Assembly (NCBI GenBank): GCA_903865435.1
Contig: CAIPJS010000002.1
Coordinates: 1 to 64,000, forward strand
Direction: 5' to 3'
Source of the DNA: an uncultured Bacteroidota bacterium
Lineage (GTDB): Bacteria > Bacteroidota > Bacteroidia > Chitinophagales > Chitinophagaceae
DNA length: 64,000 nt
The translations under genes were made by a program, and so were the position numbers. Positions 20,080 to 40,432 of this stretch are shown one piece after another. Position 1 is the first letter of the stretch; every line of letters starts with the position of its first letter. The notes beneath the pieces were generated by a model. It had not been told where the DNA came from. It worked only from the letters and a program-made list of their open reading frames with translations, and ran no database searches.

Positions 20080-20112
20080 CTCTGTTTATCAATCAACTAA
20101 AGATCTGACTAA

Positions 20113-22409: not shown

Positions 22410-22448
22410 TTCAATTTTATTTTTCTAATGTTATGAAATTATAAAGTG

Positions 22449-22467: not shown

Positions 22468-22540
22468 ATTTGTTAAAAAGGTACCATTATTAATACTACA
22501 GTAATATTAAACATGTTAAAATTGCATAAAAATTTAACAT

Positions 22541-25500: not shown

Positions 25501-25846
25501 GACTTTTGCTAATAATGATGTTGCAAGTACTGTTCAAAACTATCTTTCTTCAGGTCTTGGAGGTATGACAGAGCCATGGATGATAGATCGCACATTCATA
25601 AAATTACGTGAAGTTTCATTTGGTTACACTATGCCTCAATCAATGCTTAAATCTAAAGCTATCAAATCAATTACATTTTCTTTAGTGGGCAAAAACTTAT
25701 TATATTTTGCTGCAAGAAAAGATTTTGATATTGAACAATTTGCTTCTGGTTATAACGCAGGAGATTTATCATTGCAGAATGGTGGAGGTGTTTTACAAAG
25801 TGTTACTTCTAAAAGATTTGGTTTTAACATTAATGTTAGCTTCTAA
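22541..25846 (+). CDS. SusC/RagA-family TonB-linked outer-membrane protein
   Basis: The 1101-residue protein has a signal peptide ending KVFSQ, a carboxypeptidase-regulatory-like domain (about 28-105, ISNSNGSGISGAVIRI), a DVVVTAFG linker, the plug (LLFVVDGTPINSD, NASAVYGFRGLNGAIVITTKSG read in parts) and a long beta barrel ending RFGFNINVSF with a terminal Phe. SusC proteins pair with SusD lipoproteins to import large nutrients. No glycanase, regulator or sigma/anti-sigma gene flanks it. Its neighbours are phosphatase and phosphonate genes, so the cargo may be an organophosphorus compound. That is inference from position. Confidence 0.95.
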   Translation: MQVFFKKMLIGVMLLTFLFTKVFSQDSKVVAGKISNSNGSGISGAVIRILPSRKVITSDNTGEFKITINGSDKSLEISSIGFISQTITISSLNSYNIVLKDDPNVLTDVVVTAFGIKKEIKRLGYDIQELKGADLAQSRDANPINSLVGKVAGLTVGGNAEMLGRPELVLRGSKDLLFVVDGTPINSDTWNISPDDIESYTILKGTNASAVYGFRGLNGAIVITTKSGSKDKKGWQVDFNNSTFVEPSFLTLPESQYEYGRGKVFTYSYGDRLYDNAQRLPEWGPRFEGQLIKQYNSPYDPLTGIRTATPWTAKGINNFQNFMQTGLTTNTNISMSAATDRSDIRISMSNMYQKGTAPNTNLYTYNLAIKGGYNISDKLRLEASLNLNKQNSPNIPDVNYGPNSYIYMFKVYGSSDYDINDLKDVFKGPTGVKGLMPYAQEYGRENSAVYMANYWLRTHDKTDINGYVKATYKFNSSLSLNLKSQITTWNQTRQEDVPAGANLQTYTPWWYFGWYGDYRLDKRNLFENNNDLTLNYDHRFKDWNVSGFAGISDRSFNYNSFFGTTKALAVPGLYALSNSINPALEYTWGSRMQVYSAFYSMDFTYKKFFTLSHTGRVDQLSTLPNGNNTFYYPSVSLSTVLTDYLDIPKFISFAKLRASYANVKGGLTQSNVPSAFSMISGQSINGGLLGYSTDLYSSYDGPSYNNQNSYSIATYYNGLSSVNFSNTIANPNLKPFSRTSYEGGIDLKFLKNRLGLDFTYFSSLNGPQIYALPVPSSTGYSSQNVNGITTKKDGFEISLNGSPLKSANGLNWDVMLNYSTYKETLNEIYGTEKYLTLNGHNYTVGERLDAFYSTGYVTDGKGNNIISGGLPLRAPSDIDNNKFLGFMNPDFTLAFANKFSYKNFNFSFQLDGRFGGQIYDEVYKDGMNGGTAIESATGAFGAARLAEWQSTNNQTTTVVPKYIAPGVKIVSGTPIYKNGLITNLSALTFANNDVASTVQNYLSSGLGGMTEPWMIDRTFIKLREVSFGYTMPQSMLKSKAIKSITFSLVGKNLLYFAARKDFDIEQFASGYNAGDLSLQNGGGVLQSVTSKRFGFNINVSF

Positions 25847-25875
25847 TTAAATAATAAAAGATAAATTATAATTTT

Positions 25876-27465
25876 ATGAAAATAAATTTCAAAAATTTAC
25901 TACTTTCTGTAGTAATTATTACAGTAGCCTTTACCAGCTGTCAAAAAGGCGACTTAATATCAAACCCAAATGTGGCTGCTGAATCTTCAACCATACCTAC
26001 TTCATTAATTTTGAATCATATAACTGCGAATTTAATGAAAGAAGAAGAGCCGATTATTTCTCAAGTATATAAACAAGATCAATTTATTGTTTCCAACTAC
26101 CCTTATTATTTTGGTTCTAATTCATATAGTTTTGGACCAAGTGCTAATATGTACGATCAAATCAAATATTGTACAAAATTAGAAGAACAAGCTTTAAAAC
26201 AATATAACAGCAAAACAAACAATCCTTATTTTGCATTGAGTAAGTTTTTTCAAGCCTATTCTTTAATTTGGTATACTCAAAGAGTGGGAGATATTCCTGC
26301 AAGCCAAGCAGTAAATTCTAATTATACAAATCCTAAATATGATACGCAACATGATGTGTATAAATATGCATTAAGTTTACTGGATAGTGCAAATATTTTA
26401 TTATCAGTACAAATTACAAGTTCTAACGCAAGCACTAAAGTGGATGCATCTGGTGATATTTTTGGTTTGACTTATTTACAATGGCAGAAAGTTATTAATA
26501 CTTATAAATTAAGGACTTTAATAAGTTTAAGTAAAAGAGCTGATGACAATGCTGATTTAAATATTAAATCTCAATTTGCAACTATCATCAATAATCCAAC
26601 TCAGTATCCTATAATGTCTTCTACAAGCGATAACTTAGTTTATAAGTATAATTCCATTAATTATTATCCACCCAATAGAGCAGGGTATGTTCCATACAAT
26701 TTATGTGAAAACATAAGTACCACGTATATGAATTTGTTAACTACAAATAAGGATCCAAGAACATTTGTTGTTGCCACACCAGCTAGTGCTCTATTATCTT
26801 CTACAACAGTAGCAGATTTTAATGCATATGTAGGTGAGGACAACTCAAAATCTCAAAGTTTTATGAGTAATTTTACAGCAGATGGCAAACATGCTTCATT
26901 GAATTGGAATAGATATTTTTCATCTGCCAGTGGGGCAAATGCTGAACCTTATACAATTTTAGGTTACGCTGAATTATGTTTCAATATTGCAGAAGCTGCT
27001 AATAGAGGTTGGATCACAACTCAATCTGCAAGCACTTGGTATGGTAAAGGAGTAGATGCATCATTATCTATCTATGGTATTACAGATGGTAAATTGTTAA
27101 CTATTGGAAATGGTGATGGAACTAAAACAAATATTGGAACGGTAACAGCAGATGTGGTTACTTTTAAATCAAAAATTGCATATGCTGGAGATAATGCAAC
27201 AGGTTTATCACAAATTTTAACTCAAAAATATGTTGCATTTTTTATGAATTCTGGTTTCGAAGCTTATTACAATTGGAGAAGAACTGGTGTTCCTACTTTT
27301 AGTCAGAATGGTCCTGGTATAGGAACTACAGACAATATGATTCCTTATCGTTGGCAATATCCTAATGATGAAAAAACTTCAAATTCTACAAATGTAAACG
27401 CAGCCATTTCATCTCAATTTGGAGGTACAGACGATTTGACTGGTAAAATGTGGTTAATTAAATAG
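25876..27465 (+). CDS. SusD-like nutrient-binding lipoprotein (SusD-like_2 type)
   Basis: The 529-residue protein has a lipobox ending FTSC (Cys22) and the helical TPR-like plan of the RagB/SusD superfamily. The segments ISQVYKQDQFIVSNYPYYFG, FQAYSLIWYTQRVGDIPASQA, YAELCFNIAEAANRG and the C-terminal YRWQYPNDEKTSN are typical of the second SusD subfamily. It caps the SusC barrel from the cell surface and binds the ligand. It follows susC by 29 bases and is followed by a strong terminator, so the pair forms a two-gene operon. Confidence 0.93.
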   Translation: MKINFKNLLLSVVIITVAFTSCQKGDLISNPNVAAESSTIPTSLILNHITANLMKEEEPIISQVYKQDQFIVSNYPYYFGSNSYSFGPSANMYDQIKYCTKLEEQALKQYNSKTNNPYFALSKFFQAYSLIWYTQRVGDIPASQAVNSNYTNPKYDTQHDVYKYALSLLDSANILLSVQITSSNASTKVDASGDIFGLTYLQWQKVINTYKLRTLISLSKRADDNADLNIKSQFATIINNPTQYPIMSSTSDNLVYKYNSINYYPPNRAGYVPYNLCENISTTYMNLLTTNKDPRTFVVATPASALLSSTTVADFNAYVGEDNSKSQSFMSNFTADGKHASLNWNRYFSSASGANAEPYTILGYAELCFNIAEAANRGWITTQSASTWYGKGVDASLSIYGITDGKLLTIGNGDGTKTNIGTVTADVVTFKSKIAYAGDNATGLSQILTQKYVAFFMNSGFEAYYNWRRTGVPTFSQNGPGIGTTDNMIPYRWQYPNDEKTSNSTNVNAAISSQFGGTDDLTGKMWLIK

Positions 27466-27490
27466 TTTTAAGTATAGGGAGAATGTTTAC

Positions 27491-27520
27491 AGTGGGGAGT
27501 GTTGAGCTCCCCACTTTTTT
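27491..27520 (+). terminator. Strong intrinsic terminator after SusCD
   Basis: A perfect nine-base stem AGTGGGGAG/CTCCCCACT with a seven-base loop is followed by six T residues, 26 bases after the SusD stop. It cleanly ends the SusCD operon and excludes the in-frame upstream start of the next gene. Confidence 0.9.
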
Positions 27521-27542
27521 AATTTATAATAAAAACGGGACT

Positions 27543-28364
27543 ATGAAAATTATAGTGTTATATTTTTCAATGATTATTATTGCTTCTACTAGCCATGCTC
27601 AAATTGCAGACAGTAGTAGTAGAGAAGTAAAATTACAAGGCGCCGTAAATTTTAGAGATATTGGTGGCTATACTACAAAGAATGGCAGAAAGGTTAAAAT
27701 GGGCCTATTATACCGCTCCGCAGCCTTAAATACTTTAACAGATGCCGACCTAGCTAAATTAGAAGCCCTGCACATAAAATATGATTTTGATTTTAGAGGC
27801 CCTTATGAAGTAAAAACTGCACCTGATAAAATACCATCAGGCACTACGCGTATTTCTTTACCAGCGGGTAGTGAAAATGTAGGAGATAGCAACTACATGA
27901 AGAATATGGGTAAGTATATGAAATCGGATTCTTTTTTAATTAGTTTTTATACTGTTTTGACACCATTTAAAGACCGTTATACACCTTTGTTTGATAGTTT
28001 AGTATCCAATACTAAAGCAAGTCCAATGCTATTTCATTGCACTGCTGGTAAGGATAGAACAGGTATTGCAGCTGCTTTAATTTTGTATGCTTTAGGCGTG
28101 GATGAACAAACCATTTTTGATGACTACGAAGCCACTAACTATTATAGACGAAATGAAAATGCTAAATCCATAGCACAAATGACCAAATATTATGGTTTGG
28201 ATGAAAAAACTGCGAATAATTTAATGGGAGCTAAAAAAGAATATATAGCAGCTACTTTTGCTACCATAAGAAGTAAATATAGCAGTATAGATACTTATCT
28301 AGAAAAAGAATTGGGGTTGACACCTCTAATAATTAAAAAGCTAAGAGCTATCTATACCAATTAG
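27543..28364 (+). CDS. Secreted tyrosine/serine phosphatase (Y_phosphatase3 type)
   Basis: The ATG at 27543 was chosen because it follows the SusCD terminator and gives a signal peptide ending SHAQ; an upstream in-frame ATG lies before the terminator hairpin. The 273-residue protein has the family opening VNFRDIGGYTTKNGRKVK and MGLLYRSAAL, and the CX5R signature HCTAGKDRTG with Cys166 and Arg172. Such bacterial enzymes dephosphorylate phosphotyrosine, phosphoserine or phosphoinositides. Exported and placed in a phosphorus locus, it may release phosphate from organic esters. Confidence 0.9.
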   Translation: MKIIVLYFSMIIIASTSHAQIADSSSREVKLQGAVNFRDIGGYTTKNGRKVKMGLLYRSAALNTLTDADLAKLEALHIKYDFDFRGPYEVKTAPDKIPSGTTRISLPAGSENVGDSNYMKNMGKYMKSDSFLISFYTVLTPFKDRYTPLFDSLVSNTKASPMLFHCTAGKDRTGIAAALILYALGVDEQTIFDDYEATNYYRRNENAKSIAQMTKYYGLDEKTANNLMGAKKEYIAATFATIRSKYSSIDTYLEKELGLTPLIIKKLRAIYTN

Positions 28365-28409
28365 TATTGGATCTGATTTTGTTTAATTAATAGAGTAATA
28401 TCTAAAACG

Positions 28410-28442
28410 CTTAACATTAAGTTAATATATAGTTAACTATTT
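28410..28442 (+). promoter_or_regulatory. Pho-box-like triple 11-bp direct repeat upstream of phosphonate operon
   Basis: TTAAC, TTAAT and TTAAC occur at 28411, 28422 and 28433, each preceded by C or G, in exact 11-base phase, 60-95 bases before the DUF5690 start. Period and core resemble PhoP/PhoB operators (TTAACA-type repeats in Bacillus). No binding data exist for this genome, so the site is proposed from pattern alone. Confidence 0.5.
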
Positions 28443-28502
28443 CATTACATTGTTTTAAATGAAATAAATAGATTGTTACTTAGGTTTGATAAGCAAATTT
28501 CA

Positions 28503-29774
28503 ATGATCAATCTAAGTTTTAAAAAAGACAATCAAGCTGGAGCTTCCATCTATATCGCTATTGTATGCTTTTGTACCTATGCGTGTGTGTATGCCTTTAG
28601 AAAGCCTTTCACCATTGGTTTGTACGAAGATATGCCTAGTTATTTGGGCATTGAATATAAAAACTTATTAGTCATTGCACAGGTCTTAGGCTATACAGCC
28701 AGTAAAGTATTTGGCATCAAATTTATCTCAGAATTAAAAAATATTGGAAGGGGAAAATTAATTCTACTATTGATTGTTTTATCATGGATTCCTTTGTTAT
28801 TATTTCCTGTTTTACCAGCACCTCTTAATATATTTTGCTTTTTTTTAAATGGGTTCCCTTTAGGGATCATATGGGGCATCGTATTTTCTTTTGTGGAAGG
28901 CAGAAGAGCGACTGATTTTCTTGGTGCTGCATTGGCAGTAAGTTTTATTGTATCGTCTGGTGTTGTTAAATCTATTGCAAAGTGGATTCAAATGAGTTTT
29001 AATATTTCGGAAATGTGGGTACCTTTTTATACTGGCTTAGTTTTTATTTTGCCCATCATTTTATTTATTTATTTACTTGAAAAAATTCCTGCCCCAACCC
29101 CTGAAGAAATTGAATTAAAAGCACCAAGGCTACCCATGACCAAATTGGATCGCCATTCTTTTTTTAAGGAATTTAAAATAGGCATCATTGCTTTTGTTTT
29201 TATTTATTTAATACTGACTTTGTTTAGAGATTTAAGAGACAATTTTGCTGCAAATATTTGGAACGATTTGGGTTATGGAAACAATGCAAGTGTATTTACC
29301 AATACCGAATTACCCATTGCTTTTATTGTATTGATTTTGATTGCAAGTATGATTGTTATCAAAAAAAATAAACTTGCTTTTTTAATAAGTATTGTAATTA
29401 TTATGTTAGGATTTATAATAGTTGGATTAAGTACCTTATTTTTTAAAATGAATATTTTAAACGGATACCATTGGATGTTATTAGTGGGCCTTGGCTTGTA
29501 TATGGGTTATATACCATTTAATTCATTGTTATTTGACCGAATGATTGCTACTTTCAGAATCAAAGGCAATGTTGGCTTTCTTATTTATTTATTGGATTCT
29601 TTTGGATATTTGGCTTCAGTTATTGTTATTAGTATCAAAGGAACTGCACATTTACAATTGAATTGGGCAGAATTTTATTCTAAGGGCGTCTTATATTTTT
29701 CTATCCTTGGCTTATTGGCTTCTTTAGCAGCATACTTATATTATGCCAAAAAAATTAAAACATTAAACTATTAA
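28503..29774 (+). CDS. DUF5690 family MFS-like membrane protein, candidate phosphonate transporter
   Basis: The ATG at 28503 is preferred to an in-frame TTG 30 bases upstream. The 423-residue protein has about 12 hydrophobic helices and begins with a CFCTYACVYAFRKPFTIG-like segment seen in organophosphate/hexose-phosphate antiporter-like proteins, with FNGFPLGIIWG-type glycine-rich helices and VEGRRATDFLGA in the central part. DUF5690 has no assigned function. It is the first gene of a tight run with four phosphonate-associated genes (spacing three bases to the next), so transport of a phosphonate across the inner membrane is a reasonable inference. Confidence 0.8.
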   Translation: MINLSFKKDNQAGASIYIAIVCFCTYACVYAFRKPFTIGLYEDMPSYLGIEYKNLLVIAQVLGYTASKVFGIKFISELKNIGRGKLILLLIVLSWIPLLLFPVLPAPLNIFCFFLNGFPLGIIWGIVFSFVEGRRATDFLGAALAVSFIVSSGVVKSIAKWIQMSFNISEMWVPFYTGLVFILPIILFIYLLEKIPAPTPEEIELKAPRLPMTKLDRHSFFKEFKIGIIAFVFIYLILTLFRDLRDNFAANIWNDLGYGNNASVFTNTELPIAFIVLILIASMIVIKKNKLAFLISIVIIMLGFIIVGLSTLFFKMNILNGYHWMLLVGLGLYMGYIPFNSLLFDRMIATFRIKGNVGFLIYLLDSFGYLASVIVISIKGTAHLQLNWAEFYSKGVLYFSILGLLASLAAYLYYAKKIKTLNY

Positions 29775-29777
29775 TAC

Positions 29778-30905
29778 ATGAGTGACAAAACAGCAATCGT
29801 AGTAGGGGCTGGGATCTTGGGAATGGCTACTGCCCGTGCTTTGGCTTTAAAAGGGTACAAAGTTACGATTTTTGAAAAATCACAACAATCCCTTGGAGCC
29901 TCTATTAGAAACTTTGGTATGTTATGGCCTATTGGTCAACCTGATGGAAAATTGTATGATCGAGCCATCAGGTCTAGAGAAATTTGGAAAGAATATTTAA
30001 CCAATGCAAAAATTAATTTTGACCCTTGTGGTAGCTTGCATTTGGCCTATGACAAAGAGGAGCAGGATGTGTTGGAAGAATTATATGAACATTTTACAAA
30101 ACACAATAGGCCCGTTACTTTAATGCAACCCAATACCATCTTGGAAAAATTTAATGGTATTAATGGTGAAAATTTAAAAGCAGGTTTATTTAGTAGTGAT
30201 GAAACCATTATAGATCCTAGAGAGGGCATTAAAAATTTACCCGCTTATTTAAAAGATTATTATAACATTAAAATTATTTGGGGCACAGCCATCACCAATG
30301 TAACAACCAATACTGTATGGTCTTTTAAAACCAAATACAATGCCGACTTAATTTGTATTTGTTCTGGAGCCGATTTTGAAACACTTTATCCAGAAAATTT
30401 TAAAGAATTGCCCATTATTAAGTCAAAATTGCAAATGATGCGATTTGTGCCAAATGACCCAAATTATAAAATTGGAACTTCTATTTGTGGTGGTCTATCC
30501 TTATTGCATTATAAAAGTTTTACCGCATCAAAATCTTTAGATATTTTAAAAGCAAAAATTGACTTAGAACTTCCAGAATACATTAAAAACGGAATTCATG
30601 TCATGGTATCACAAAACCATCAAGGGGAATTAACCGTAGGGGATTCACACGAATATGCTTTAGATTTTGAACCCTTTGACAAACATACTGTCAACGAATT
30701 GATTTTGAAATATTTAAAAAAGTTAATTCATATTGATAATTGGACATTGCAACAATCATGGAATGGGGTGTATCCCATGATGACCAATGGCACAACTGAT
30801 TTGCTTTTAAAAGTGGAGCCAGGCGTATACATTATCAATGGAATTGGTGGAAATGGTATGACATTGTCTTTTGGTTTTGCAGAAGAAGCTGTAAACAAAA
30901 TTTAA
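29778..30905 (+). CDS. TIGR03364-type FAD-dependent oxidoreductase of phosphonate operons
   Basis: The 375-residue DAO-superfamily flavoprotein has an N-terminal dinucleotide motif GAGILG, then the subfamily block GASIRNFGMLWPIGQPDG, and a C-terminal FAD motif INGIGGNGMTLSFGFAEE. The TIGR03364 clade is defined by co-occurrence with phosphonatase-like hydrolases, and members are thought to deaminate aminophosphonates oxidatively, 2-aminoethylphosphonate or N-methyl or hydroxy derivatives. Here the next genes are an HD oxygenase and exactly that phosphonatase-like hydrolase, so the context agrees. The product would be a phosphono-aldehyde. Confidence 0.88.
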   Translation: MSDKTAIVVGAGILGMATARALALKGYKVTIFEKSQQSLGASIRNFGMLWPIGQPDGKLYDRAIRSREIWKEYLTNAKINFDPCGSLHLAYDKEEQDVLEELYEHFTKHNRPVTLMQPNTILEKFNGINGENLKAGLFSSDETIIDPREGIKNLPAYLKDYYNIKIIWGTAITNVTTNTVWSFKTKYNADLICICSGADFETLYPENFKELPIIKSKLQMMRFVPNDPNYKIGTSICGGLSLLHYKSFTASKSLDILKAKIDLELPEYIKNGIHVMVSQNHQGELTVGDSHEYALDFEPFDKHTVNELILKYLKKLIHIDNWTLQQSWNGVYPMMTNGTTDLLLKVEPGVYIINGIGGNGMTLSFGFAEEAVNKI

Positions 30906-30916
30906 ATTTTAAACGT

Positions 30917-31474
30917 ATGAATAATATCGTTGATTTTATTATTGATGTATTTTTAAAAAAAGGGCATGAATTATACGGCGGGGAAGCTGTAACACAGTTG
31001 GAGCATGGCTTACAGGCTGCCCATTTTGCAAAAGAATCAAATGCTTCTGAAAATTTAATTGCTGCTGCCTTAATGCATGATATTGGACATTTATTGCATG
31101 ATTTACCAGATGATGCCACCAATAATGGCATTGATGACGTTCATGAAGCTTTAGGTGCTGAATTTTTAATCCAATATTTCAAAGAAGAAGTAGTGGAAGC
31201 AGTTAAGTTGCATGTACCTGCTAAAAGATACCTATGCTTGGTAGATCCCGAATATTATGAAGCATTATCATCCGTTTCAAAAGCAAGTTTAATATTACAA
31301 GGAGGCATTATGTCCATGGAAGAGAAAAATAATTTTGAATTGAATGAATATTTTAAAGAAGCAGTTGCATTAAGAAGATGGGACGATCAAGCTAAAATCC
31401 CCAATTTAAAGGTGGATGATATCTATACTTATAGAAGCATATTAGAACAATCATTATTAAAAAATAGTTTATGA
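30917..31474 (+). CDS. PhnZ/TmpB-like HD-domain mixed-valent diiron oxygenase
   Basis: The 185-residue protein carries every residue expected for the PhnZ group: the lid pair Tyr20 and Glu23 (YGGE), iron ligands His30, His54-Asp55, His76, His99 and Asp156 (in RRWDD), and Lys103 after the fifth ligand. PhnZ cleaves the C-P bond of 1-hydroxy-2-aminoethylphosphonate to glycine and phosphate, and TmpB does the analogous reaction on the trimethylated compound. These enzymes need an alpha-hydroxylated substrate, normally made by PhnY* or TmpA. No such 2-oxoglutarate hydroxylase is present in the window. The stop overlaps the next start (ATGA). Confidence 0.88.
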   Translation: MNNIVDFIIDVFLKKGHELYGGEAVTQLEHGLQAAHFAKESNASENLIAAALMHDIGHLLHDLPDDATNNGIDDVHEALGAEFLIQYFKEEVVEAVKLHVPAKRYLCLVDPEYYEALSSVSKASLILQGGIMSMEEKNNFELNEYFKEAVALRRWDDQAKIPNLKVDDIYTYRSILEQSLLKNSL

Positions 31475-32148
31475 GCATAAAGATGATCGTATTTGATATG
31501 GCAGGAACGACTATTGATGAAGACAATATTGTATATAAAACTTTACATAAAAGCATCAATCAATATGGTGTTACAGTTGATTTGTCTGCTGTTTTAGAGA
31601 TAGGGGCAGGGCAAGAAAAATTAACTGCCATCAAAGACATTGTTTCAAAGTATGGCACACAAGAAGATTTGCTAAAGGCTAATGATATGTATCATTATTT
31701 TATCAATCATCTTCAAACTGCCTATGAAGAATTTGATATTCAAGCCATGCAGCATGCTGAAACTGTGTTGACCTATATAAGAAGCAAAAATATATTGGTT
31801 GTATTAAATACAGGCTATGACCGAGCTACTGCACAATTTATTTTAAATAAGATTAATTGGGTACAACTATATCATTATGATTTATTGGTATCCGCTACAG
31901 ATGTTAAGAACAATAGACCATCACCTGATATGATTCATTTTGCAATGAATTTATTTTCTATCAATGATCCTAAGGAGGTAGTAAAAATTGGGGACTCCAA
32001 AATCGATATCGAAGAAGGCCAAAACGCCCATTGTTTATATAGTATTGGTATTACTACTGGTGCACAAACTAAAGCACAGTTAGCTGAGGCAAAACCTGAT
32101 CAAATTATTGATAACCTAAACGATTTAATTAGTTTTTTAAATATTTAA
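31471..32148 (+). CDS. Phosphonatase-like HAD hydrolase (TIGR03351 type)
   Basis: The 225-residue HAD protein opens with the phosphonatase version of motif I, FDMAGTTID (Asp9, Ala11, Gly12, Thr13), instead of DxDxT. Lys50 in GAGQEK lines up with the Schiff-base lysine of PhnX, and Arg149 in NNRPSPDM replaces the usual motif III lysine, as in phosphonoacetaldehyde hydrolase. Motif IV is KIGDSKIDIEEG. PhnX hydrolyses phosphonoacetaldehyde to acetaldehyde and phosphate; the natural substrate of the TIGR03351 clade is not settled. It overlaps the HD oxygenase gene by four bases, indicating translational coupling. Confidence 0.88.
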   Translation: MSIKMIVFDMAGTTIDEDNIVYKTLHKSINQYGVTVDLSAVLEIGAGQEKLTAIKDIVSKYGTQEDLLKANDMYHYFINHLQTAYEEFDIQAMQHAETVLTYIRSKNILVVLNTGYDRATAQFILNKINWVQLYHYDLLVSATDVKNNRPSPDMIHFAMNLFSINDPKEVVKIGDSKIDIEEGQNAHCLYSIGITTGAQTKAQLAEAKPDQIIDNLNDLISFLNI

Positions 32149-32151
32149 TAT

Positions 32152-32595
32152 ATGTTGGTAAAAAATTGGAAAATTAGAAAGGCAAACTTAATTGATGTAA
32201 ATTATTTCCATCAATCTATAGAACAAATTCATTCAATGAAAATACAGTTTGATGTATTTACTGAACAATTTAAAAAGAAGTTAAAAAATAAAAACTGTTT
32301 ACTATATGTAATTGAAACTACATTAGGTAGCCAAATTGGTTGTATCTGCTGTGAAAAGGAAGAAAGTTTCTTAACCAGTAGACCCATTATACAAATAAAA
32401 GAATTTTACATTTCTCCAGCCTATAGAAAATTAAATATTGCGGATGATTTATTTTTATTTATTTATGAAAAGTCTATTCAATTAGGCATGGATAAGATAG
32501 AAGTACTTTGCAATTTAAATTCTACGACCACACAAAACTTTTATTCACAAAAAAAGTTTATTCCAGTTAAAAAATTGTATGTAAAAAGTATCTAA
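32152..32595 (+). CDS. GNAT-family acetyltransferase, last gene of phosphonate operon
   Basis: The 147-residue GNAT protein starts three bases after the phosphonatase-like gene. It keeps the IQIKEFYISPAYRKLNIADDL acetyl-CoA region (read in parts) and a C-terminal FYSQKKF motif. The layout resembles PhnO, but the glycine-rich loop is degenerate (RKLNIADD instead of RGxGxG), so it is a diverged relative of the PhnO-like gene at 22 kb. It may acetylate an aminophosphonate or its product. It ends one base from the convergent phosphatase gene. Confidence 0.8.
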   Translation: MLVKNWKIRKANLIDVNYFHQSIEQIHSMKIQFDVFTEQFKKKLKNKNCLLYVIETTLGSQIGCICCEKEESFLTSRPIIQIKEFYISPAYRKLNIADDLFLFIYEKSIQLGMDKIEVLCNLNSTTTQNFYSQKKFIPVKKLYVKSI

Positions 32596-32596
32596 T

Positions 32597-34009
32597 TTAC
32601 TTTATAATTGTAAAATTATCTACCACTTTACCTGAGCTTGCAATTTGTTTAAATGTAAATATATTTTTTTCAATTGTCACATAACTTAATGAATTGTCTG
32701 TTGAGAAAAATTTGTCAGTAAATGGCTGCCATGAATTGGGCATATTGGTTTGTTCTGGATTGTATAAATCTTGACCACCTGCACCTGTTACTATATATAC
32801 AACTCCTTTTGGCTTTTTATTTTTAATCCCATCAAAGTTTTTATCTAATACCCAATCTCCGCCTACTTGTTCTCCTTTTCTTTTTGTTGTAGATGCTATC
32901 TCTTTTTTTGAAGATGTATCTGGCTTAAAGGTTAATGGGAATGATCTTTGATAATTATGTACATGCCCATTAAATACTATATCTACCTTGCCAGCTTCAA
33001 AAATAGGAGATAATAACCTCATATGTTGTTCTTCAAAATGTTCTTTGGAGGAGTTAAAACCTGGTTGGTGAAACATCACAAAACGCCACTGTGCACTGGC
33101 TGCTTTTTTTAAATCTTCTTTCACCCATTCTTGCAAATCTTTATTAGTCCAATCAACATAATAATCTGCATCAATCACGGTCCAATGCGCATTGCCATAA
33201 TCATAGGAATAGGTAGTCATCTTTGGGTAGGCTTTTTGAGCAGCGGTATAAAAAGCATTTTTATTTGTTTCATTGCCTTTTAGCATTGGTATCAGTGGCG
33301 AACCTTCTTTATAATCTGGACCATTCAAAGGTTGTTCCCAGAAATAATAATAAGACAAAGCATCAGGTGTTTTGTCCATATCTCTATCATTGGCATCATG
33401 ATTGCCTACAGAGGCAAAGAATGGAATTTTTCTCATTAATGGTGCACCACTGCTGTCATTTTTATCGGCATTGTATATGGGCCAAAATTTTGTTGTATAA
33501 TCTTTAATCAAACCACTATTGTATACGATGTCTCCTGGAACTGCCACAAAATCTGGATTCAGATCATACATGATATTGGCTAATTTCTTTTGGTTTTTGG
33601 TTAATGCACCAATATCACCTATTACCACAAATTTATAATTTTGATTCTTAGTTTTAGGCGCATGTGCAGTTGATTCAAATACTAATTTTTTATTCTTAGA
33701 TACTCTATAAGTAAAATCAATACCACTTTCTAGTTGTGCTAATGTGGCATGATATACTACAAATGGACTGTAATTTTTTATATTTACTTTATTGAAATAA
33801 ATATTTTTACTATTTATCCAACTATTTTTTGTCTTTACTTCTACTTTCCATTCACTAGTTGTATCAGCACAATGCCATAACAAAGACAAATTTTTAGGAT
33901 TTGCATCATATCCAATTTGAAGATAAGGAGCAGTGATAAAATCTTTTTGAGCTGCTAACTGGTTGATTGAAAATAGAACACAAAATAAAAATGTTAATAA
34001 ATTTTTCAT
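32597..34009 (-). CDS. Secreted purple-acid-phosphatase-like metallophosphoesterase
   Basis: The 470-residue protein has a signal peptide ending LAAQ, an N-terminal fibronectin-III-like domain (about 25-115, APYLQIGYDANPKNLSLLWH) and a metallophosphoesterase domain. The metal motifs are GDIGAL, GDIVYNSG, GNHDAND, HQPGFNS and GHVHNYQRS, which follow the purple acid phosphatase order. Such enzymes hydrolyse phosphomonoesters outside the cytoplasm. It is the last gene of a reverse-strand trio beginning with the propeller-phosphoesterase fusion, with only nine bases to its upstream neighbour. Confidence 0.92.
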   Translation of the reverse strand: MKNLLTFLFCVLFSINQLAAQKDFITAPYLQIGYDANPKNLSLLWHCADTTSEWKVEVKTKNSWINSKNIYFNKVNIKNYSPFVVYHATLAQLESGIDFTYRVSKNKKLVFESTAHAPKTKNQNYKFVVIGDIGALTKNQKKLANIMYDLNPDFVAVPGDIVYNSGLIKDYTTKFWPIYNADKNDSSGAPLMRKIPFFASVGNHDANDRDMDKTPDALSYYYFWEQPLNGPDYKEGSPLIPMLKGNETNKNAFYTAAQKAYPKMTTYSYDYGNAHWTVIDADYYVDWTNKDLQEWVKEDLKKAASAQWRFVMFHQPGFNSSKEHFEEQHMRLLSPIFEAGKVDIVFNGHVHNYQRSFPLTFKPDTSSKKEIASTTKRKGEQVGGDWVLDKNFDGIKNKKPKGVVYIVTGAGGQDLYNPEQTNMPNSWQPFTDKFFSTDNSLSYVTIEKNIFTFKQIASSGKVVDNFTIIK

Positions 34010-34018
34010 AATTTTAAT

Positions 34019-34522
34019 TTAAAATGTAACGCCAAATTGTAATCCTATACCTACTGAGGCAGGTGAACTATTTCCAAATCTTGCTGGAATAGGGACGGAA
34101 ACCCAATAACTATTCATTTTGGTTTTATAGAGTACCTTATTAAAAACCAAATTGGTACCATATCGGCCTCCTGTCTCAAAGGCAAGCCTAGTAAGTACAT
34201 TAAAACCTTTGGGGTATCTAAAGATAAGACCCGGTTGAATAGACAAATTACTTGTTTTAGTTATCCCTTTTGTTGAATTGAGTGTTGGAACTATTTCAAT
34301 ACTATAAGCCAACTTATCTGATTTAATAATATTAATTCCAATGGGAAAGCCAACAGTATAGGAATGGTCAAAATTGTAAGCAGGTAAATTTGAAGAAATG
34401 GTAAGTAATGGATGATTGATGCTAAAATAAGCGGCTACTTTAGGGTATTCATTTGAATTCTGGGCATTTACATATCCATTGAGTATAAAAAAGCTAAGTA
34501 TAGTTAAAATAGAATTTTTCAT
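34019..34522 (-). CDS. Small outer-membrane beta-barrel-like protein
   Basis: The 167-residue protein has a signal peptide ending YVNAQ and mature sequence with alternating polar and hydrophobic residues, Gly turns and a terminal Phe (GLQFGVTF), as in small eight-stranded outer-membrane barrels. No family is recognised. It sits nine bases upstream of the purple-acid-phosphatase-like gene and 28 bases downstream of the phosphoesterase fusion, so it belongs to that operon and may anchor or assist the phosphatases. Confidence 0.75.
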   Translation of the reverse strand: MKNSILTILSFFILNGYVNAQNSNEYPKVAAYFSINHPLLTISSNLPAYNFDHSYTVGFPIGINIIKSDKLAYSIEIVPTLNSTKGITKTSNLSIQPGLIFRYPKGFNVLTRLAFETGGRYGTNLVFNKVLYKTKMNSYWVSVPIPARFGNSSPASVGIGLQFGVTF

Positions 34523-34550
34523 TCATTATTTAGTTAAGCCGCTGATTGAA

Positions 34551-37256
34551 TTATTTCTTTTCTTTTTTATAATGTGCTTTTCTCATATCTTCTTCGTCAT
34601 CCATATCTGGACCTTTCTCTACTTTTCTCCAATCCACATCTCTGTTGTAACGCTTCATGGCGTTGGTCGTATTGAATATATCTTTAGAGGGAAATACTAA
34701 GCTGTAAGGCTTATAATTAGGTTTATCGGTAAAAAAGTCTTCCAATAAACTAGCGGTAGCATCGTATTGATTCACATAGGGAACATCTAAAATATTATAA
34801 ATTACTTTTAATATTGAACCAAAATTAGCATGTGTATTGGAAGTATAATTTCTTTTTACATAAGGTCCTGCCATCATTAAAATACTTCTGTGCGCATCTA
34901 TATGGTCTACACCCCCTTGAGGATCATCTTCGGTAACGATCACCAACATATTTTTCCAATAGGGCGTTCTAGATAAAAAATGTAAAATTCTACCTACTGC
35001 TAAATCATTGTCTGCAACATAAGATTCATGATAGGGATAGCCATCTTTAGGTCTTGGATCGGCAGTATGGTCATTGGGTACCTGCATGGTGATTAAGCTT
35101 GGCAATGCTTTGTGTTTGTTGAGCCACAATTTTTTAAACTCAGTTTCGAATTGCTCCATTCTAAATTGATCTGGAATATTGCAATTAAATCCTGCGTAAT
35201 TATGACTTGTATTTTTCCATAAAGCTTTTTGCATGGGCACCATTACTGCATGTCCACTTCCAGTGGCTGTATCATTCCATTCTTCTCTATTGTGCGCTGT
35301 TTCATTGGCTTCACCAAAATTATAGAAAGGAACATTTTTTCTTTCCAATGCTTCCCATAGCCCACCTCTTTCTGCATAATCCTCAGGATCTATGCTTCCA
35401 GTGGTTCCCGGGAATCTTCTACCAGAAGCATTTGAAAATATTTTTGCCGATTTATTCACACTTGAATTGGTTTCTACCCATTCGTTGGGAATCACGCCCA
35501 TCATCCAATGATGTCCATGGATAGAAGCGTCACCATCACAATAAAAATTATCCGAAAAGGCAAATTCTTGTGCCAACTTTGAATGATTGGGTGTAATGTC
35601 AAAACCTACCGCATTTTTACTTTGAAAGCCCATTCTTACATGATTACCAAATCTTGCTATACTTGAATCACCTCGGCCTGTTTTTAATTGACCTAGCACT
35701 TCATCATAAGTTCTATTTTCTTTGGTGATGTATACTATATATTTAATGGGGCTTTTACGAATGCCGGCTTTAATGGGTAATGGGTTTTTTACATCATCTA
35801 CCTTAGCAATCGTTTTATACGTATTGTTTAAAGTTGTTTTGGTATAATTTTTTAATTCCTCTAAAGTGGGCACTTTTATTTTTTGGAAACTACCTAATTG
35901 AATGTCGCCAATATAAGTACCTTGTTCTGGTTTTTTAAAACCAATACCACCATTAGGCCCTGCACCATAACCTCTACAAGAAATGACATACATTTCTTTT
36001 TCGTCATTACTCAACCTGATTTTTGAGGTACCCCATCCGCTTGGAATAAATCCAATAGTCTTTCTTTTCTCAAGATCAATCACTGCTACTGCATTAAATC
36101 CTAATAAGGCAACATACAATGTTTTCTCGTCCTTGGTCATGGTCATGCCAAAAGGAAGATAGCCTCTATATTGATCAATGGCATCATTCATTTTAATAGG
36201 AATACTTCCAACTATTTTATGATTTTTATAATCAATGATAGAAATATTATCATTCGTAGCATTGGATACATAGGCCAATTCATTACCTATTGTTATTGAG
36301 TTTGGACTTGCGCCTCCTACTACCTCAGCGCCCTCAATCATTTCCCCAATTTGATAGCCTGTTTTAAATTTATCTACTACTTGATTTGTACTAAGATCAA
36401 TGTTAAAAACACTCATTGCATTAGGTGATAAGGGGTCGCCAACGCCAGGTATCAATCTTCCATTATACGTAATACCATTTATTGATTCTTTTGTGTTGTT
36501 TCCATAAGGATGCCAAGGCATCAGCATGGTATCATAATTTTCCTTGGTAATATCTGGAATGATTGGGTAATCATACATGCCTACATTGGCCACCATGACG
36601 AATTCTTTGTTGGGGCTTAATGCTAAATTAAAAGGTTGACGTCCTGTTTTAATGGAAGCTTTTATTTTTTTTGTTGCCAAGTCAATCCTAACCAATCTAA
36701 AATTGCCTCTATCTAAAACCAACAATTCATTTTCCTTTTCATTGTAGATGATATCTGAAGTAAAGCTGTCGTCGTAACTAATTCCATCAATAGTTCCATT
36801 TAAGGAAATAGAATCTATTTTTTTGAACTGTTTGATATCATAAACCATCACGGCACCTGCATCACCGGCACTTAAATACACTAAGTCATTATTATTACTT
36901 GCAAAGGTGATACCCAAAAAAGATCCCTTTTTTAAAATGGTATCAATTTTTTTATCATAACTAGGAACTCTAATGGCTTTTAGATTATCATTGTTGATAA
37001 TTGTTATGACGCCATTGTGTAAGGTCACTGTTTTAGTTCCATCGGGTGAAACGGCCATCCCAAAAGGGCTACGTGTGATTTGAATAGTAGCACCGGCTGG
37101 GGTAATGTATCTGCCACTTGGTAAAACTGTGTGATTGTTTTTATCAATATTGGTGTATTCTTTATCACCAGGCACTGATAAATAATTGTAAGTTTTTTGA
37201 GCAATCAATGTATTGGATAGTACAATTAATTGCAAGTATAATAATATACTTTTCAT
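34551..37256 (-). CDS. YncE-like beta-propeller fused to phosphoesterase (PLC/acid phosphatase) domain
   Basis: The 901-residue secreted protein (signal peptide ending LIAQ) has a propeller of YncE/lactonase type over about residues 40-480 (repeats such as NKEFVMVANVGMYDYP and KTLYVALLGFNAVAVIDLEK). A phosphoesterase domain follows from about 500: ITKENRTYDEVLGQL, AFSDNFYCDGDASIHGHHWM and VTEDDPQGGVDHIDAHRS, with the acidic and His metal ligands of that family. Family members cleave phosphodiesters or phosphomonoesters. It heads a three-gene reverse operon, and 11-bp repeats lie upstream. Fusions of this kind recur in Bacteroidota; the propeller role is unknown. Confidence 0.9.
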   Translation of the reverse strand: MKSILLYLQLIVLSNTLIAQKTYNYLSVPGDKEYTNIDKNNHTVLPSGRYITPAGATIQITRSPFGMAVSPDGTKTVTLHNGVITIINNDNLKAIRVPSYDKKIDTILKKGSFLGITFASNNNDLVYLSAGDAGAVMVYDIKQFKKIDSISLNGTIDGISYDDSFTSDIIYNEKENELLVLDRGNFRLVRIDLATKKIKASIKTGRQPFNLALSPNKEFVMVANVGMYDYPIIPDITKENYDTMLMPWHPYGNNTKESINGITYNGRLIPGVGDPLSPNAMSVFNIDLSTNQVVDKFKTGYQIGEMIEGAEVVGGASPNSITIGNELAYVSNATNDNISIIDYKNHKIVGSIPIKMNDAIDQYRGYLPFGMTMTKDEKTLYVALLGFNAVAVIDLEKRKTIGFIPSGWGTSKIRLSNDEKEMYVISCRGYGAGPNGGIGFKKPEQGTYIGDIQLGSFQKIKVPTLEELKNYTKTTLNNTYKTIAKVDDVKNPLPIKAGIRKSPIKYIVYITKENRTYDEVLGQLKTGRGDSSIARFGNHVRMGFQSKNAVGFDITPNHSKLAQEFAFSDNFYCDGDASIHGHHWMMGVIPNEWVETNSSVNKSAKIFSNASGRRFPGTTGSIDPEDYAERGGLWEALERKNVPFYNFGEANETAHNREEWNDTATGSGHAVMVPMQKALWKNTSHNYAGFNCNIPDQFRMEQFETEFKKLWLNKHKALPSLITMQVPNDHTADPRPKDGYPYHESYVADNDLAVGRILHFLSRTPYWKNMLVIVTEDDPQGGVDHIDAHRSILMMAGPYVKRNYTSNTHANFGSILKVIYNILDVPYVNQYDATASLLEDFFTDKPNYKPYSLVFPSKDIFNTTNAMKRYNRDVDWRKVEKGPDMDDEEDMRKAHYKKEKK

Positions 37257-37292
37257 TGAAGTAATTTAGTCCCACAATCTATACCATGCTTA

Positions 37293-37319
37293 CTTAGCGT
37301 GGTATTAAGTTTCTATTAA
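37293..37319 (-). promoter_or_regulatory. Pho-box-like 11-bp repeats upstream of phosphoesterase operon
   Basis: On the minus strand, TTAAT, TTAAT and CTAAG end at 37315, 37304 and 37293 in exact 11-base phase, 37-63 bases before the start of the phosphoesterase fusion. Spacing and core match the repeat set before the phosphonate operon. The third unit is imperfect. Confidence 0.42.
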
Positions 37320-37372
37320 ATATTATACAAGGTGAGATAAGGGTAGGTCGGTCAAGTGATGAATAGGTATAA

Positions 37373-37406
37373 AAAAAGCCTTCCCGATAATTCGAAAAGG
37401 CTTTTT
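37373..37406 (-). terminator. Intrinsic terminator, probable former terminator of the tRNA-like RNA
   Basis: The stem AAAAAGCCTT/AAGGCTTTTT is perfect and bidirectional, with a CCCGATAATTCGAA loop region. On the minus strand it lies four bases beyond the left 16-bp repeat that copies the 3' end of the RNA gene at 39.6 kb. It could therefore have been that RNA's terminator before the cassette arrived. Confidence 0.75.
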
Positions 37407-37409
37407 AAT

Positions 37410-37425
37410 TGCTGTAGGGGGAGGG
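37410..37425. repeat. Left 16-bp direct repeat (att-like)
   Basis: Identical to 39618-39633. It reproduces the 3' strand of the T-stem, the 3' acceptor strand and the last three bases of the RNA gene but has no matching 5' RNA half beside it, so it is a fragment rather than a second gene. Confidence 0.75.
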
Positions 37426-37543
37426 CTAAAATATTTAAGCTATTAAGAACCAATTACTTAGGAATTTATATTTTCCCCATATAGTATCTATTTTTTAAAC
37501 CGTACATTTGATTACCCCCAAAGGATAGTTTAAAACTTAAACT

Positions 37544-39469
37544 ATGAATAAAGTAATTATTGCTTTGGGAATTTTATTTTTATTTGCTTCCTGCAAAAAA
37601 GAGATCCCTCAAAAACAATTAACAGTAAATGTAACACCAGCTGTTGGTGGCACAGTTACTCCAACTTCCGGGTCTTATGGTATGGGTTCAACTGTACAAC
37701 TAATAGCAACACCTTCTGCTGAATATATATTTAAAGAATGGAATGGAGGATATACTGGAACTACGAATCCAGCAAATATTGTAATGGATGCGGATAAAAC
37801 TGTTACTTGTGTTTTTGAGAAAAGACAATATCCACTTAGTTTAACTATTGTTGGATCTGGAACTGTGAAGGAAGAAATTATTAAAGTTGCTGCTGCATCA
37901 ACTAATTATACATCGGGTACAACAGTGCGTTTAACACCAGGGCCAAGTGATGGATATCAATTTAAAGGATGGTCTGGAGATAATACTTCAACAACATCAC
38001 CACTAGATTTAGTCATATCAAAAGCTACTAATCTAACTTGTACTTTTGAAAAAATGGCAATAACTACTTTAAAAATTGATAATCTTTTAGATACATTGAC
38101 TATTTCAAAAACACACAAATACATTGTCAAAGGGCTTTATTCAAATGGAGTTGCCATTGATTTAAGTGATAGTGTTAAGATAACAGCTTCAACATCTGGA
38201 GTAAATATTTTAACTAATAAAAATCTTGTAGGTGCTCAATCAGGCGGTGTTGTTGTAACCATAGCATTCAATAATCTTACTTTAAAAGATACAGTGTATG
38301 TTTCTGAGATTGAAAATGTTGATTTAAGTACTCTATCATTCTTAACAACTCCTTCAAATCCTAATGCAAAAATTATTGTACCTGTTGTTGTAATTAATTA
38401 CTATCCTACTTTAAATGGTATAGATATTGATACAAAAAGAGCACCTGGTTATGGCAGCTTATCACCAATTACAATACAGGATTTAAAAAATAGAACTACT
38501 GACTATATAACCTTGACTAAATATGGTTTAGAGGAAGCAAGTAAATATAGAGGTTATAGTAATCCTTCCCAAACATCAAACGTAAGTTTTAAAATAGTAA
38601 AATATGTTAATGTATATGAGATAAAAAGAGGTTTAAAAGATAAGCCAGATGCATCTTTAAGTGCTCAAGAGAAACTTACACCAGTTTTTCAGCCTGATTA
38701 TGTTGATATTTTTTCTAAAATAAGTTTACAATCATTAGTTGAAGGGAGTGGTGTTAAGGAGGTTTGGTTTTCATTAAGGCCATTGAGCTCTGAATATCCT
38801 ATTGTGAAGGACTCTTTAACTAATGGACTAACAGCCGCTAATTTTTTAAATTTACCTGAATCGAATATGGCAAGTCCAACAGGAAACGTTTCAAATAGTT
38901 GGTGGAGTGGTATTAAAACTAATAATTTGCCATTGCCAATATATAATAAAACATATGTAGTGTATGGCTATAATTTAGAAACTTCTCCTGGCAATAATAT
39001 ACATAATAGAGGGCATCAAATTGAATCTCAACTTCAATCTTTAGATTCTGGGATTTTTGGATTAAATACTGCAACGTTTTTAAATAAATTTGTAGGAATA
39101 ACAATTGGACAAAATAACAATAAACCCTTAGGTAGAGCTGGTATGACACATTTTCCTCCAAATACAACCGTTGATTATGATTACGATAATAAAACTTTAG
39201 TAGAAAGTGATATTGAAGATTGGAAACCATTAGGGGGCACTAAAAAATTAATTAATAGCGATAGATGGATTGGGTCTCAGCTTCTAAAATACCCTAGTTT
39301 AATTTCAACAAAAGATGATTATAATAAAGATCCTCAATATAAGTGGCTAATATTTTGGATGCAAAGTATCCCAGGATATAATAATGGTATAAGCGGAGTG
39401 AATGATTGGTGGGATTTATTTTATAATTGGGATAATTCAATCAAGAATAATTCAAAATTGAATAACTAA
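37544..39469 (+). CDS. Cassette lipoprotein with InlB-type B repeats, Big-like domain and unknown C-terminus
   Basis: The 641-residue protein has a lipobox ending FASC (Cys17). Two InlB B-repeat/bacterial-repeat modules follow (about 25-90 and 95-168), each ending in CVFEK or CTFEK after a GW or EW core (FKEWNGGYTG, FKGWSGDNTS). A Big-like beta sandwich spans about 172-255. The last 385 residues match nothing I recognise; they contain HNRGHQIESQL, GRAGMTHFPPNTT and a Trp-rich end (WWDLFYNWDNS). An extracellular adhesion or enzymatic role is possible. Its low-GC, Asn/Thr-rich composition differs in feel from neighbours, consistent with transfer. Confidence 0.82.
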   Translation: MNKVIIALGILFLFASCKKEIPQKQLTVNVTPAVGGTVTPTSGSYGMGSTVQLIATPSAEYIFKEWNGGYTGTTNPANIVMDADKTVTCVFEKRQYPLSLTIVGSGTVKEEIIKVAAASTNYTSGTTVRLTPGPSDGYQFKGWSGDNTSTTSPLDLVISKATNLTCTFEKMAITTLKIDNLLDTLTISKTHKYIVKGLYSNGVAIDLSDSVKITASTSGVNILTNKNLVGAQSGGVVVTIAFNNLTLKDTVYVSEIENVDLSTLSFLTTPSNPNAKIIVPVVVINYYPTLNGIDIDTKRAPGYGSLSPITIQDLKNRTTDYITLTKYGLEEASKYRGYSNPSQTSNVSFKIVKYVNVYEIKRGLKDKPDASLSAQEKLTPVFQPDYVDIFSKISLQSLVEGSGVKEVWFSLRPLSSEYPIVKDSLTNGLTAANFLNLPESNMASPTGNVSNSWWSGIKTNNLPLPIYNKTYVVYGYNLETSPGNNIHNRGHQIESQLQSLDSGIFGLNTATFLNKFVGITIGQNNNKPLGRAGMTHFPPNTTVDYDYDNKTLVESDIEDWKPLGGTKKLINSDRWIGSQLLKYPSLISTKDDYNKDPQYKWLIFWMQSIPGYNNGISGVNDWWDLFYNWDNSIKNNSKLNN

Positions 39470-39536
39470 ATATCTAGCAGATTTTCCATATTATTTTATA
39501 ACTAATTCTTATTAAAACGTCAATTTGAATCAAATA

Positions 39537-39559
39537 TTAGTGAAACTTTTAGTGAAACT
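39537..39559 (+). repeat. Tandem 11-bp direct repeat near right end of cassette
   Basis: TTAGTGAAACT occurs twice, at 39537-39547 and 39549-39559, separated by one base. Short direct repeats near an element end can be arm-type recombinase sites, but no recombinase is present to test this against. Confidence 0.5.
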
Positions 39560-39571
39560 AGTAAAAATAAT

Positions 39572-39612
39572 AAACCCTTTAAAACATTGTTAATCAATGA
39601 ATTAAAGGGTTT
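39572..39612 (-). terminator. Long hairpin terminator between cassette gene and tRNA-like gene
   Basis: An 11-base outer stem AAACCCTTTAA/TTAAAGGGTTT and an inner CATTG/CAATG stem form one long hairpin with T-rich flanks. It can serve both the cassette gene (plus strand) and the tRNA-like RNA (minus strand), whose 3' end is eight bases away. Confidence 0.7.
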
Positions 39613-39617
39613 TATTG

Positions 39618-39633
39618 TGCTGTAGGGGGAGGG
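39618..39633. repeat. Right 16-bp direct repeat (att-like) within RNA 3' end
   Basis: Identical to 37410-37425. It covers the RNA from the last T-loop base through the acceptor 3' strand to three bases past position 72. Confidence 0.75.
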
Positions 39634-39782
39634 ATCGAACCTCCAAGAGGCAGTTAGCTAAAACACAAAGTTGAGTGGTCTACCCTGGTCGCCTATTGCT
39701 AGACGGCTCTATGTTTCGTTTATCCCGTTATCCTCACCTCCGAGACAAGGAGGCATGTATGCCAAGATTTCATCACCCCACA
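39620..39782 (-). ncRNA. tRNA-like RNA with a ~90-nt insertion in the variable region
   Basis: On the minus strand a 163-nt sequence folds with tRNA ends: a seven-pair acceptor stem TGTGGGG/CCCTACA with one G-U, T8-G9, a short D-arm with ATG/CAT stem and a GG in the loop, a CCTCC/GGAGG stem with seven-base loop TTGTCTC, and a canonical T-arm GGAGG-TTCGATC-CCTCC followed by a G discriminator. The loop would place anticodon GTC, but positions 37-38 are T and C, unusual for a working tRNA. About 90 nt sit between the anticodon arm and T-arm, with internal ACGG/CCGT and TAGC/GCTA pairings. CCA is not encoded. tmRNA hallmarks are absent. The 474-base intergenic stretch 39470-39943 holds this, the terminator and an AT-rich leader only. 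Confidence 0.6.
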
Positions 39783-39943
39783 GTATTTAAGAACTTATCA
39801 TTTGAGTGGTTTATCTAATTTTTTCCCTCATTTGATAAATCAAAACTAAAGTATTGCCTTTTATGTTGCAAATATTTTAAGTATATTCTTTAAAATATAG
39901 AAAAATATTAATAAATTGCCATATTATTTAAAATCATATAAAT

Positions 39944-40432
39944 ATGGAGCCTAAAATGAACCCAAAATTGAACATTGACAAAAGCCTTGACAAGCTGGAT
40001 TTGCAAATTATACAAGCCATGATGCAAGATGCTGAAGTTTCCTATGCCGATTTAGGCAAGCAGTTTTTTGTATCGGGCGGTACCATTCACGTGCGTATTA
40101 AGAAACTAGAGGAGTTGGGCATTGTGAAAGGCAAGCGTTTAGCTGTTGATTTAAAAGTGTTGGGCTATGATATCATTGCCTTTATTGGTATTTACTTGGA
40201 AAAAAGTTCAATGTATGATACGGTGGCCTTGGCCTTAAAAAATATTCCTCAAGTAGTGCGTGTGAATTATACCACGGGTAATTATAGCATGTTTGTGGAA
40301 ATTGTTTGCAAAGACATTCAACAACTTCGTTTTGTACTACATGATGAACTGCAAAAAATTAAAGGAATTGAGCGAACTGAAACCTTAATTTCTTTGGAAG
40401 AAAGTTTTTCTCGTAATGTGAAGATTGTTTAA
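39944..40432 (+). CDS. Lrp/AsnC family transcriptional regulator
   Basis: The 162-residue protein has an N-terminal winged helix (about 12-70; DLQIIQAMMQDAEVSYADLG and the recognition helix GGTIHVRIKKLEELGIV) and a RAM/AsnC effector domain with YDIIAFIGIYLEKSS and a GNYSMFVEIVCKD strand. Lrp proteins bind amino acids or other small ligands and usually act on neighbouring genes. It is 34 bases upstream of the molybdenum-hydroxylase small subunit in the same direction, so it probably regulates or is co-expressed with that enzyme. Confidence 0.93.
   Translation: MEPKMNPKLNIDKSLDKLDLQIIQAMMQDAEVSYADLGKQFFVSGGTIHVRIKKLEELGIVKGKRLAVDLKVLGYDIIAFIGIYLEKSSMYDTVALALKNIPQVVRVNYTTGNYSMFVEIVCKDIQQLRFVLHDELQKIKGIERTETLISLEESFSRNVKIV

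Follow-up and report, generated by a model that had tools for sequence, protein, structure and literature searches.

How does one gene come to stand between two exact copies of the 3' end of an RNA gene, with no integrase ORF anywhere in the interval (37410-39633)? The question is raised by a locus in a window (the whole stretch of DNA analysed) of 64,000 nt, positions 1 to 64,000 of contig CAIPJS010000002.1. The sequence-only reading had proposed a very small non-autonomous integrative element. This description fits the anatomy, but comparison with complete islands suggests a deletion derivative, not an evolved minimal element. The insertion is real, lacks an integrase and sits at a real hot spot; we put a probability of about two in three on its being the decayed, integrase-less remnant of a larger site-specific island, with one lipoprotein gene as cargo. 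It is probably a shrunken derivative of such an island, and an immobile one, its mobility apparently lost.

The insert and its target are made up of the following features:

37372-37409, minus strand: terminator hairpin beyond the left att copy (fold -18.2 kcal/mol, z -5.5)
37410-37425, minus strand: left att core copy, an exact repeat, reading CCCTCCCCCTACAGCA on the RNA strand
37544-39469, plus strand: cargo gene for a 641-aa putative surface lipoprotein (apparent lipobox, Flg_new_2/InlB B repeats)
39538-39547, minus strand: putative arm-type repeat, copy 2, AGTTTCACTA, exact
39550-39559, minus strand: putative arm-type repeat, copy 1, AGTTTCACTA, exact
39572-39612, minus strand: insert-borne terminator hairpin, now 3' of the RNA gene (fold -18.8 kcal/mol, z -6.7)
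39618-39633, minus strand: right att core copy, an exact repeat, forming the T-stem and acceptor 3' strand of the RNA gene
39620-39782, minus strand: tRNA-like RNA gene, placed by a covariance model (G73 at 39620, U1 at 39782)

The 16-mer TGCTGTAGGGGGAGGG that bounds the 2.2-kb insert is found exactly at 37410-37425 and 39618-39633, and these remain its only two sites in the window when up to 3 mismatches are allowed (0.13 in shuffles). The identity of the two repeats, the coincidence of the right one with the 3' end of a tRNA-like gene and the good terminator past each copy in the RNA's direction had all been noted from the letters, and all were borne out, the RNA gene being placed on the minus strand by the covariance model. 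A simple terminator scan of the window detected neither of the att-flanking hairpins; folding found both. The left hairpin would serve the RNA gene were the insert absent, and a similar one lies immediately 3' of the RNA at three other loci (L015, L056, and L116).

Within the insert, which has a GC content of 30.8% (vs 34.7% for the window), the lipoprotein gene is the sole ORF of note, in keeping with the earlier description of one surface lipoprotein and no integrase. A repeat with a 12-bp period, also described earlier, is indeed present: TAGTGAAACT occurs twice, starting at 39538 and 39550, 12 bp apart. What has changed is its reading, now a putative pair of integrase arm-type sites. The pair stands on the RNA side only; the far (left) end of the insert has none.

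Just one of the 59 other genomes searched (G024) encodes a full-length homologue of the lipoprotein, at 54% identity, and the 4.6 kb examined beside that homologue contains no att core. At the DNA level, the first 0.8 kb and a 40-bp leader are 78% identical between the two genes, with much lower identity over the remainder. Structure prediction of the lipoprotein was useless (mean pLDDT 31.7).

Is the repeat then a true attachment core? A 15-bp core was found in 27 of the 59 other genomes and is single-copy in every one of these, whereas the window's genome has two copies; among all 60 genomes, an exact second core is confined to the window's genome. A common dispersed repeat, which would have spoken against the proposal, is ruled out by this distribution (once per genome in all 27 other carriers). 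The other finding that would have told against it, namely relatives that all share the lipoprotein gene here, was not made either, as the gene is absent from every other RNA locus: neither the lipoprotein nor the window's 901-aa left neighbor lies 3' of the RNA elsewhere (0 to ~8 kb beyond the RNA). The exact duplication of the core, the wholeness of the RNA gene and the single-copy state in relatives support a site-specific insertion at the RNA 3' end.

Other cargo was expected at the same site and was found, including islands with integrase and defense genes. A set of at least 115 RNA loci was collected through exact matches to a 25-mer from the RNA 3' end; the set is no census, and the invariance of the 3' end among its members follows from their selection by that very end. 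With an arm-pair rule of our own (8 of 9 letters matching, plus a composition filter), pairs were detected 3' of the RNA at 31 of 115 loci, compared with 3 of 115 at a control offset and 2.9 in shuffled sequence (among the matches listed), some of the 31 being unlike arms (e.g., L027, L044, and L109). The words measure 8-10 bp and come in two copies, mostly 12-13 bp apart, after the RNA and its hairpin. They vary among loci (GGTGACACT, AGTTTCACT, TGGGGCAAA, AGTTGCCCG, and others) and are the same twice within one locus. From the anatomy of the islands described below, we infer that these words are arm-type integrase sites.

Complete islands were recognized in sister genomes. In G035, the RNA lies at 56.5 kb of contig C26 and a second core at 112.4 kb, delimiting an island of ~56 kb with an integrase beside the far core. 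In G034, the second core is on another contig (C11), beside a 448-aa integrase, and the identical arms suggest that the two ends belong to one island. Both genomes have AGGTGACACTA arm pairs at both ends, the far pair lying ~110 bp inside the far core, shortly before the integrase start. The integrases (428 or 448 aa) combine Arm-DNA-bind_5, Phage_int_SAM_5, and Phage_integrase domains. A third genome (G010) has a 9.4-kb island without an integrase, with AbiLi and AbiLii matches; at its far end, a single word of its own arm type remains. In all three, the far core is 1 or 2 bases off the core. These island integrases were found only by following the far-end cores. A local profile of 29 integrases returned none within up to 8-20 kb downstream of the RNA loci, so most arm-bearing loci are, within reach of the scan, as bare as that of the window.

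A second mini-insert was found at locus L087, where 1.2 kb contains ORFs of 70 aa and 150 aa, the latter Lipocalin_4-like. Its arms, too, stand on the RNA side only, their absence from the far end having been judged by eye. The contig ends ~45 bp past this mini-insert in a perfect palindrome, which may be an assembly artifact.

The genes behind the RNA elsewhere include matches to AbiH and Abi_alpha (G015), PDC-M11A (G034), and a Pycsar cyclase and effector (L133), as well as HipA-like, HigB-like, and Fic proteins. These loci were picked by eye, mostly for bearing arms, and thus give no frequency; at several arm-bearing loci, the genes look ordinary. A protein of 76-135 aa with an HTH-like character (MIREEVRLV...) recurs behind arm-bearing RNA loci (L194:1438-1665, L195, L204, and L010) and is possibly an excisionase, having a weak BldC-type HTH match. 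Contig ends fall within 8 nt of the RNA 3' end at 6 of 114 loci, making this the top 8-nt bin over the next 800 nt (among the matches listed), a pattern that a junction varying within populations would give.

The favored history would run as follows. An island integrase would recombine the RNA 3'-end copy of the element with the chromosomal one, whereby the incoming element would supply the last 16 bp of the RNA together with its own terminator, leaving the RNA gene whole. In the sequence, the old RNA 3' end and terminator lie displaced to the far side of the insert. Since the element brings a terminator and arms, the RNA can stay expressed. The two 10-bp repeats, by analogy with the sister-genome islands, would serve an integrase of the Arm-DNA-bind_5/Phage_int_SAM_5/Phage_integrase type as arm sites. 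An internal deletion would then have removed the integrase and the far-end arms and kept one lipoprotein gene. The insert is most likely what remains after such a deletion because complete islands have an integrase and far-end arms and it has neither; deletion within a larger island could explain both the window's insert and L087. No complete island with AGTTTCACTA arms was found, so that the parent remains unseen.

What lies to the left of the insert bears on a second account. Two relatives have the site without the insert, and the gene that directly adjoins the 3' end of their RNA lies far away in the window:

19300-20079, plus strand: ThuA gene, 17.3 kb left of the insert

In G012, the ThuA stop, a terminator, and the RNA follow one another, with 48 bp from the stop to the RNA end; in G020, this distance is 84 bp, with an arm pair in between. 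The empty site looked for in relatives was found in G012 and G020, which lack the insert and differ from the window over the whole 19.5-kb interval (20080-39618), of which the 2.2 kb is the RNA-side part, and not over the 2.2 kb alone. The DNA left of the insert is likewise not conserved. It forms a 17.3-kb block (20080-37409) with phosphatases, a TonB receptor/SusD pair, and an HD protein, absent between ThuA and the RNA in both relatives. The 901-aa gene of this block has homologues of ~60-68% identity elsewhere in several relatives.

Tandem accretion is accordingly a possible, though less probable, account, and one that is compatible with the decayed-island explanation. The left core would be the entry end of an older island (the 20080-37409 block with its phosphate-related genes) that has lost its arms, and the mini-insert would be the newest arrival. 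The 17.3 kb from ThuA to the left core, against 48 and 84 bp from the ThuA stop to the RNA in the two relatives, speaks for accretion, and in G019 the end of one island directly abuts the start of another. There is, however, no third core at the window's ThuA junction, no arms are seen beside the left core, and the relatives have the 901-aa gene on contigs or in places away from the RNA.

Rather improbable, in our estimation, is that the insert is a live, non-autonomous mini-element for which RNA-side arms and two cores suffice, excised and moved in trans by an island integrase that enters the cell and matches its arms. In favor of this, the window's cores are identical; the window and L087 are two separate mini-inserts of similar build with different putative lipoprotein cargo; and AGTTTCACT arms also occur 3' of the RNA in L103 and L120. 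On the other hand, both mini-inserts lack the far-end arms present in complete islands, and no matching integrase was found in the window's own genome. The Phage_integrase matches listed for it are spread over other contigs (C52, C66, C90, and C93), and the two compared as trans partners (C66 and C90) are without these arms and this core.

Tandem duplication in place of the RNA 3' end together with its terminator, the gene being gained later by ordinary recombination, has a counterpart in arrays of these two parts (period 95-102 bp) downstream of the RNA in L089, L097, and L147, but is very improbable here given that those arrays duplicate terminator and core together, the window's two terminators differ in sequence, and the insert contains an arm pair. 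The arrays themselves have an altered, palindromic T stem and a mostly intact att core.

A viral origin was also considered and rejected, as the RNA 25-mer had no match in viral contigs and the integrase query gave no confirmed one. The 15-mer is present in 42 viral contigs, of which only L306 encodes even a weak relative (27% identity); we treated all 42 as chance. Phage records gave only integrases below 60% identity.

How does the decayed-island reading relate to known systems? PICIs keep an integrase, and integron gene cassettes are single-gene units between recombination sites. The insert is likewise a single gene between sites, without an IntI-type gene and with the 3' end of an RNA gene as its core. 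With phage satellites such as PICIs (PMC10111431), it would share small size and dependence on others for movement, but it has no helper-related or packaging genes. Also close are the islands that tyrosine integrases insert into tRNA and tmRNA genes (for hot spots, see PMC11476347), which have in common with our locus the duplicated 3'-end core, the restored RNA gene, the cargo between cores, the arm-type sites, and, in the sister islands, the defense genes. Here, the target is no recognized tRNA or tmRNA, and the insert has arms at one end only and no integrase. The insert shows how small an insertion at this site can be, and it links Chitinophagaceae islands with defense genes to a single predictable location, readable in any genome of the group.

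The RNA holds more that is novel than the insert does. It has a 7-bp acceptor, a Leu-like D arm, a 5-bp anticodon stem, a giant structured variable arm, and a canonical T arm, and its CCA is not encoded. Folding of 65 sequences recovers the acceptor (7 bp plus a variable -1:73 contact), the anticodon stem, the variable arm, and the T arm; base -1 can pair with G73 in most, not all, copies. The variable arm (~85 nt, branched) consists of a GAGG/CCTC helix, a CAG/CTG helix, a 10-bp helix, and small hairpins. Among 69 model-found copies (56 loci), standard pairs make up 97.1% of the pair cells and 26 of 42 pairs have double changes, in an alignment fitted to the model itself with the D stem outside the model. 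None of 500 shuffles scored as high on any measure, and slid versions fell far below.

Neither ARAGORN nor Rfam reported this RNA, with Rfam 15 at a permissive threshold giving weak matches far below family cut-offs. A tmRNA was excluded, since the genome has one of its own on contig C23 and RF00023 has no match in the window; what the RNA shares with tmRNA is a tRNA-like end serving as integration site. The cloverleaf with a long variable arm is common to class II tRNAs, tRNA-Sec, and allo-tRNAs (PMC7609411). In contrast to these, the RNA combines 7/5 acceptor/T stems with a ~85-nt branched variable arm, a GUC anticodon, and a U33 that is not invariant, and it is ARAGORN-negative. The 8/4, 9/3, or 13-bp acceptor branch of allo-tRNA and tRNA-Sec was not found, the RNA having 7 + 5 bp. 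No title or abstract opening in the literature searched describes such an RNA, or integrase-less or Bacteroidetes islands of this kind. As far as Rfam 15 and these searches go, it appears to be an undescribed tRNA-like family.

Matches to the covariance model occur in 180 of the 298 genomes from the order and in 57 of the 395 from the phylum. Of these 57, 37 belong to the order or class (the weakest with an E of 8e-16), 3 belong to family f68, and 17 are probably plain tRNAs; these last, out of 20 matching genomes outside the class, were dropped for matching over 71-86 nt only at E 1e-10 or weaker. The RNA thus spreads beyond its order. Beyond the main family, its length falls in places to ~110 nt, and tandem pairs are frequent. 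Full-length tandem copies are seen at L044 and L142 and in genomes of families f18, f23, and f28, with at most 5 model matches per genome, while in L056 and L116 the RNA is ~127-129 nt long, having lost the inner variable-arm hairpins and kept the 3' end and the regulator.

This regulator is a conserved neighbor of the RNA. Three further features of the window matter here:

39742-39748, minus strand: anticodon-like loop UUGUCUC, from alignments (G34, U35, and C36 at 39746-39744, C38 at 39742)
39841-39872, minus strand: candidate Bacteroidetes-type RNA promoter, TTTG-N20-TAGTTTTG, from sequence
39944-40432, plus strand: AsnC/Lrp-type regulator, divergent from the RNA, a conserved neighbor

At all 93 genome-contig loci with enough upstream DNA (among the matches listed), a divergent AsnC/Lrp-type gene is found no more than 700 nt from the RNA, and 49 of 56 model loci across families have one within 1.5 kb. 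The window's regulator scores best with the NCBI AsnC model, below that model's cut-off. We take 39841-39872 to match the Bacteroidetes-type promoter consensus; similar motifs are found upstream of the RNA in 62 of 132 cases (12.0 when shuffled).

Which amino acid, if any, would such an RNA receive? Our identity counts come from the 65-sequence and 69-copy alignments, a loop-pattern set that was partly motif-preselected having been set aside. G34, U35, C36, C38, and G73 are present in all 69 aligned copies, and these determinants are also complete in 26 of 26 outside the main family (loci being split by number, with L247 counted in the main family and a few tandem copies with source-name labels placed under the same split). 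According to PMC9976931, the same five are the strong aspartate determinants, G10 is listed for bacteria, and G1-C72 and G2-C71 are strictly conserved in bacterial tRNA-Asp. The RNA shares the five and the minor G2-C71 (69 of 69, as for U1-A72) and differs from that tRNA at position 10 (A in 50, G in 14, and T in 5 of 69) and at G1-C72 (0 of 69). Position 33 is U in 54 copies, including the window's, C in 14, and G in 1. By a simple score against 22 tRNAs, the 5' and 3' parts of the RNA are nearest to tRNA-Asp and then to tRNA-Leu(UAG), and its D arm, compared by eye, resembles the genome's tRNA-Leu(UAG).

We hypothesize from these positions that the RNA may be charged with aspartate. More speculative, and in our judgment doubtful as a whole, is the wider picture of a new Bacteroidota family with a Leu-like body and a giant folded variable arm, charged by AspRS and mainly non-decoding (U33 varies and the genome has an ordinary tRNA-Asp), that would act as an aspartate reporter or carrier with the adjoining AsnC-type regulator and whose conserved 3' end would have become a family-wide landing site for defense islands. 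The RNA is in any case structured, deeply conserved, and apparently unnamed, with a fixed regulator neighbor and a testable amino-acid identity; were it charged, its use outside decoding, as a tRNA-like molecule, would be directly testable.

The 5' end of the RNA may receive insertions as well. In L021, L087, and L105, an ORF of ~130 aa, presumably HNH-like given its CxxC and CHRRK motifs, lies between the RNA promoter and the RNA and ends inside the RNA's acceptor strand. The regulator stands ~660 bp away at these loci, compared with the usual ~150, and the ORF may represent a homing-type insertion.
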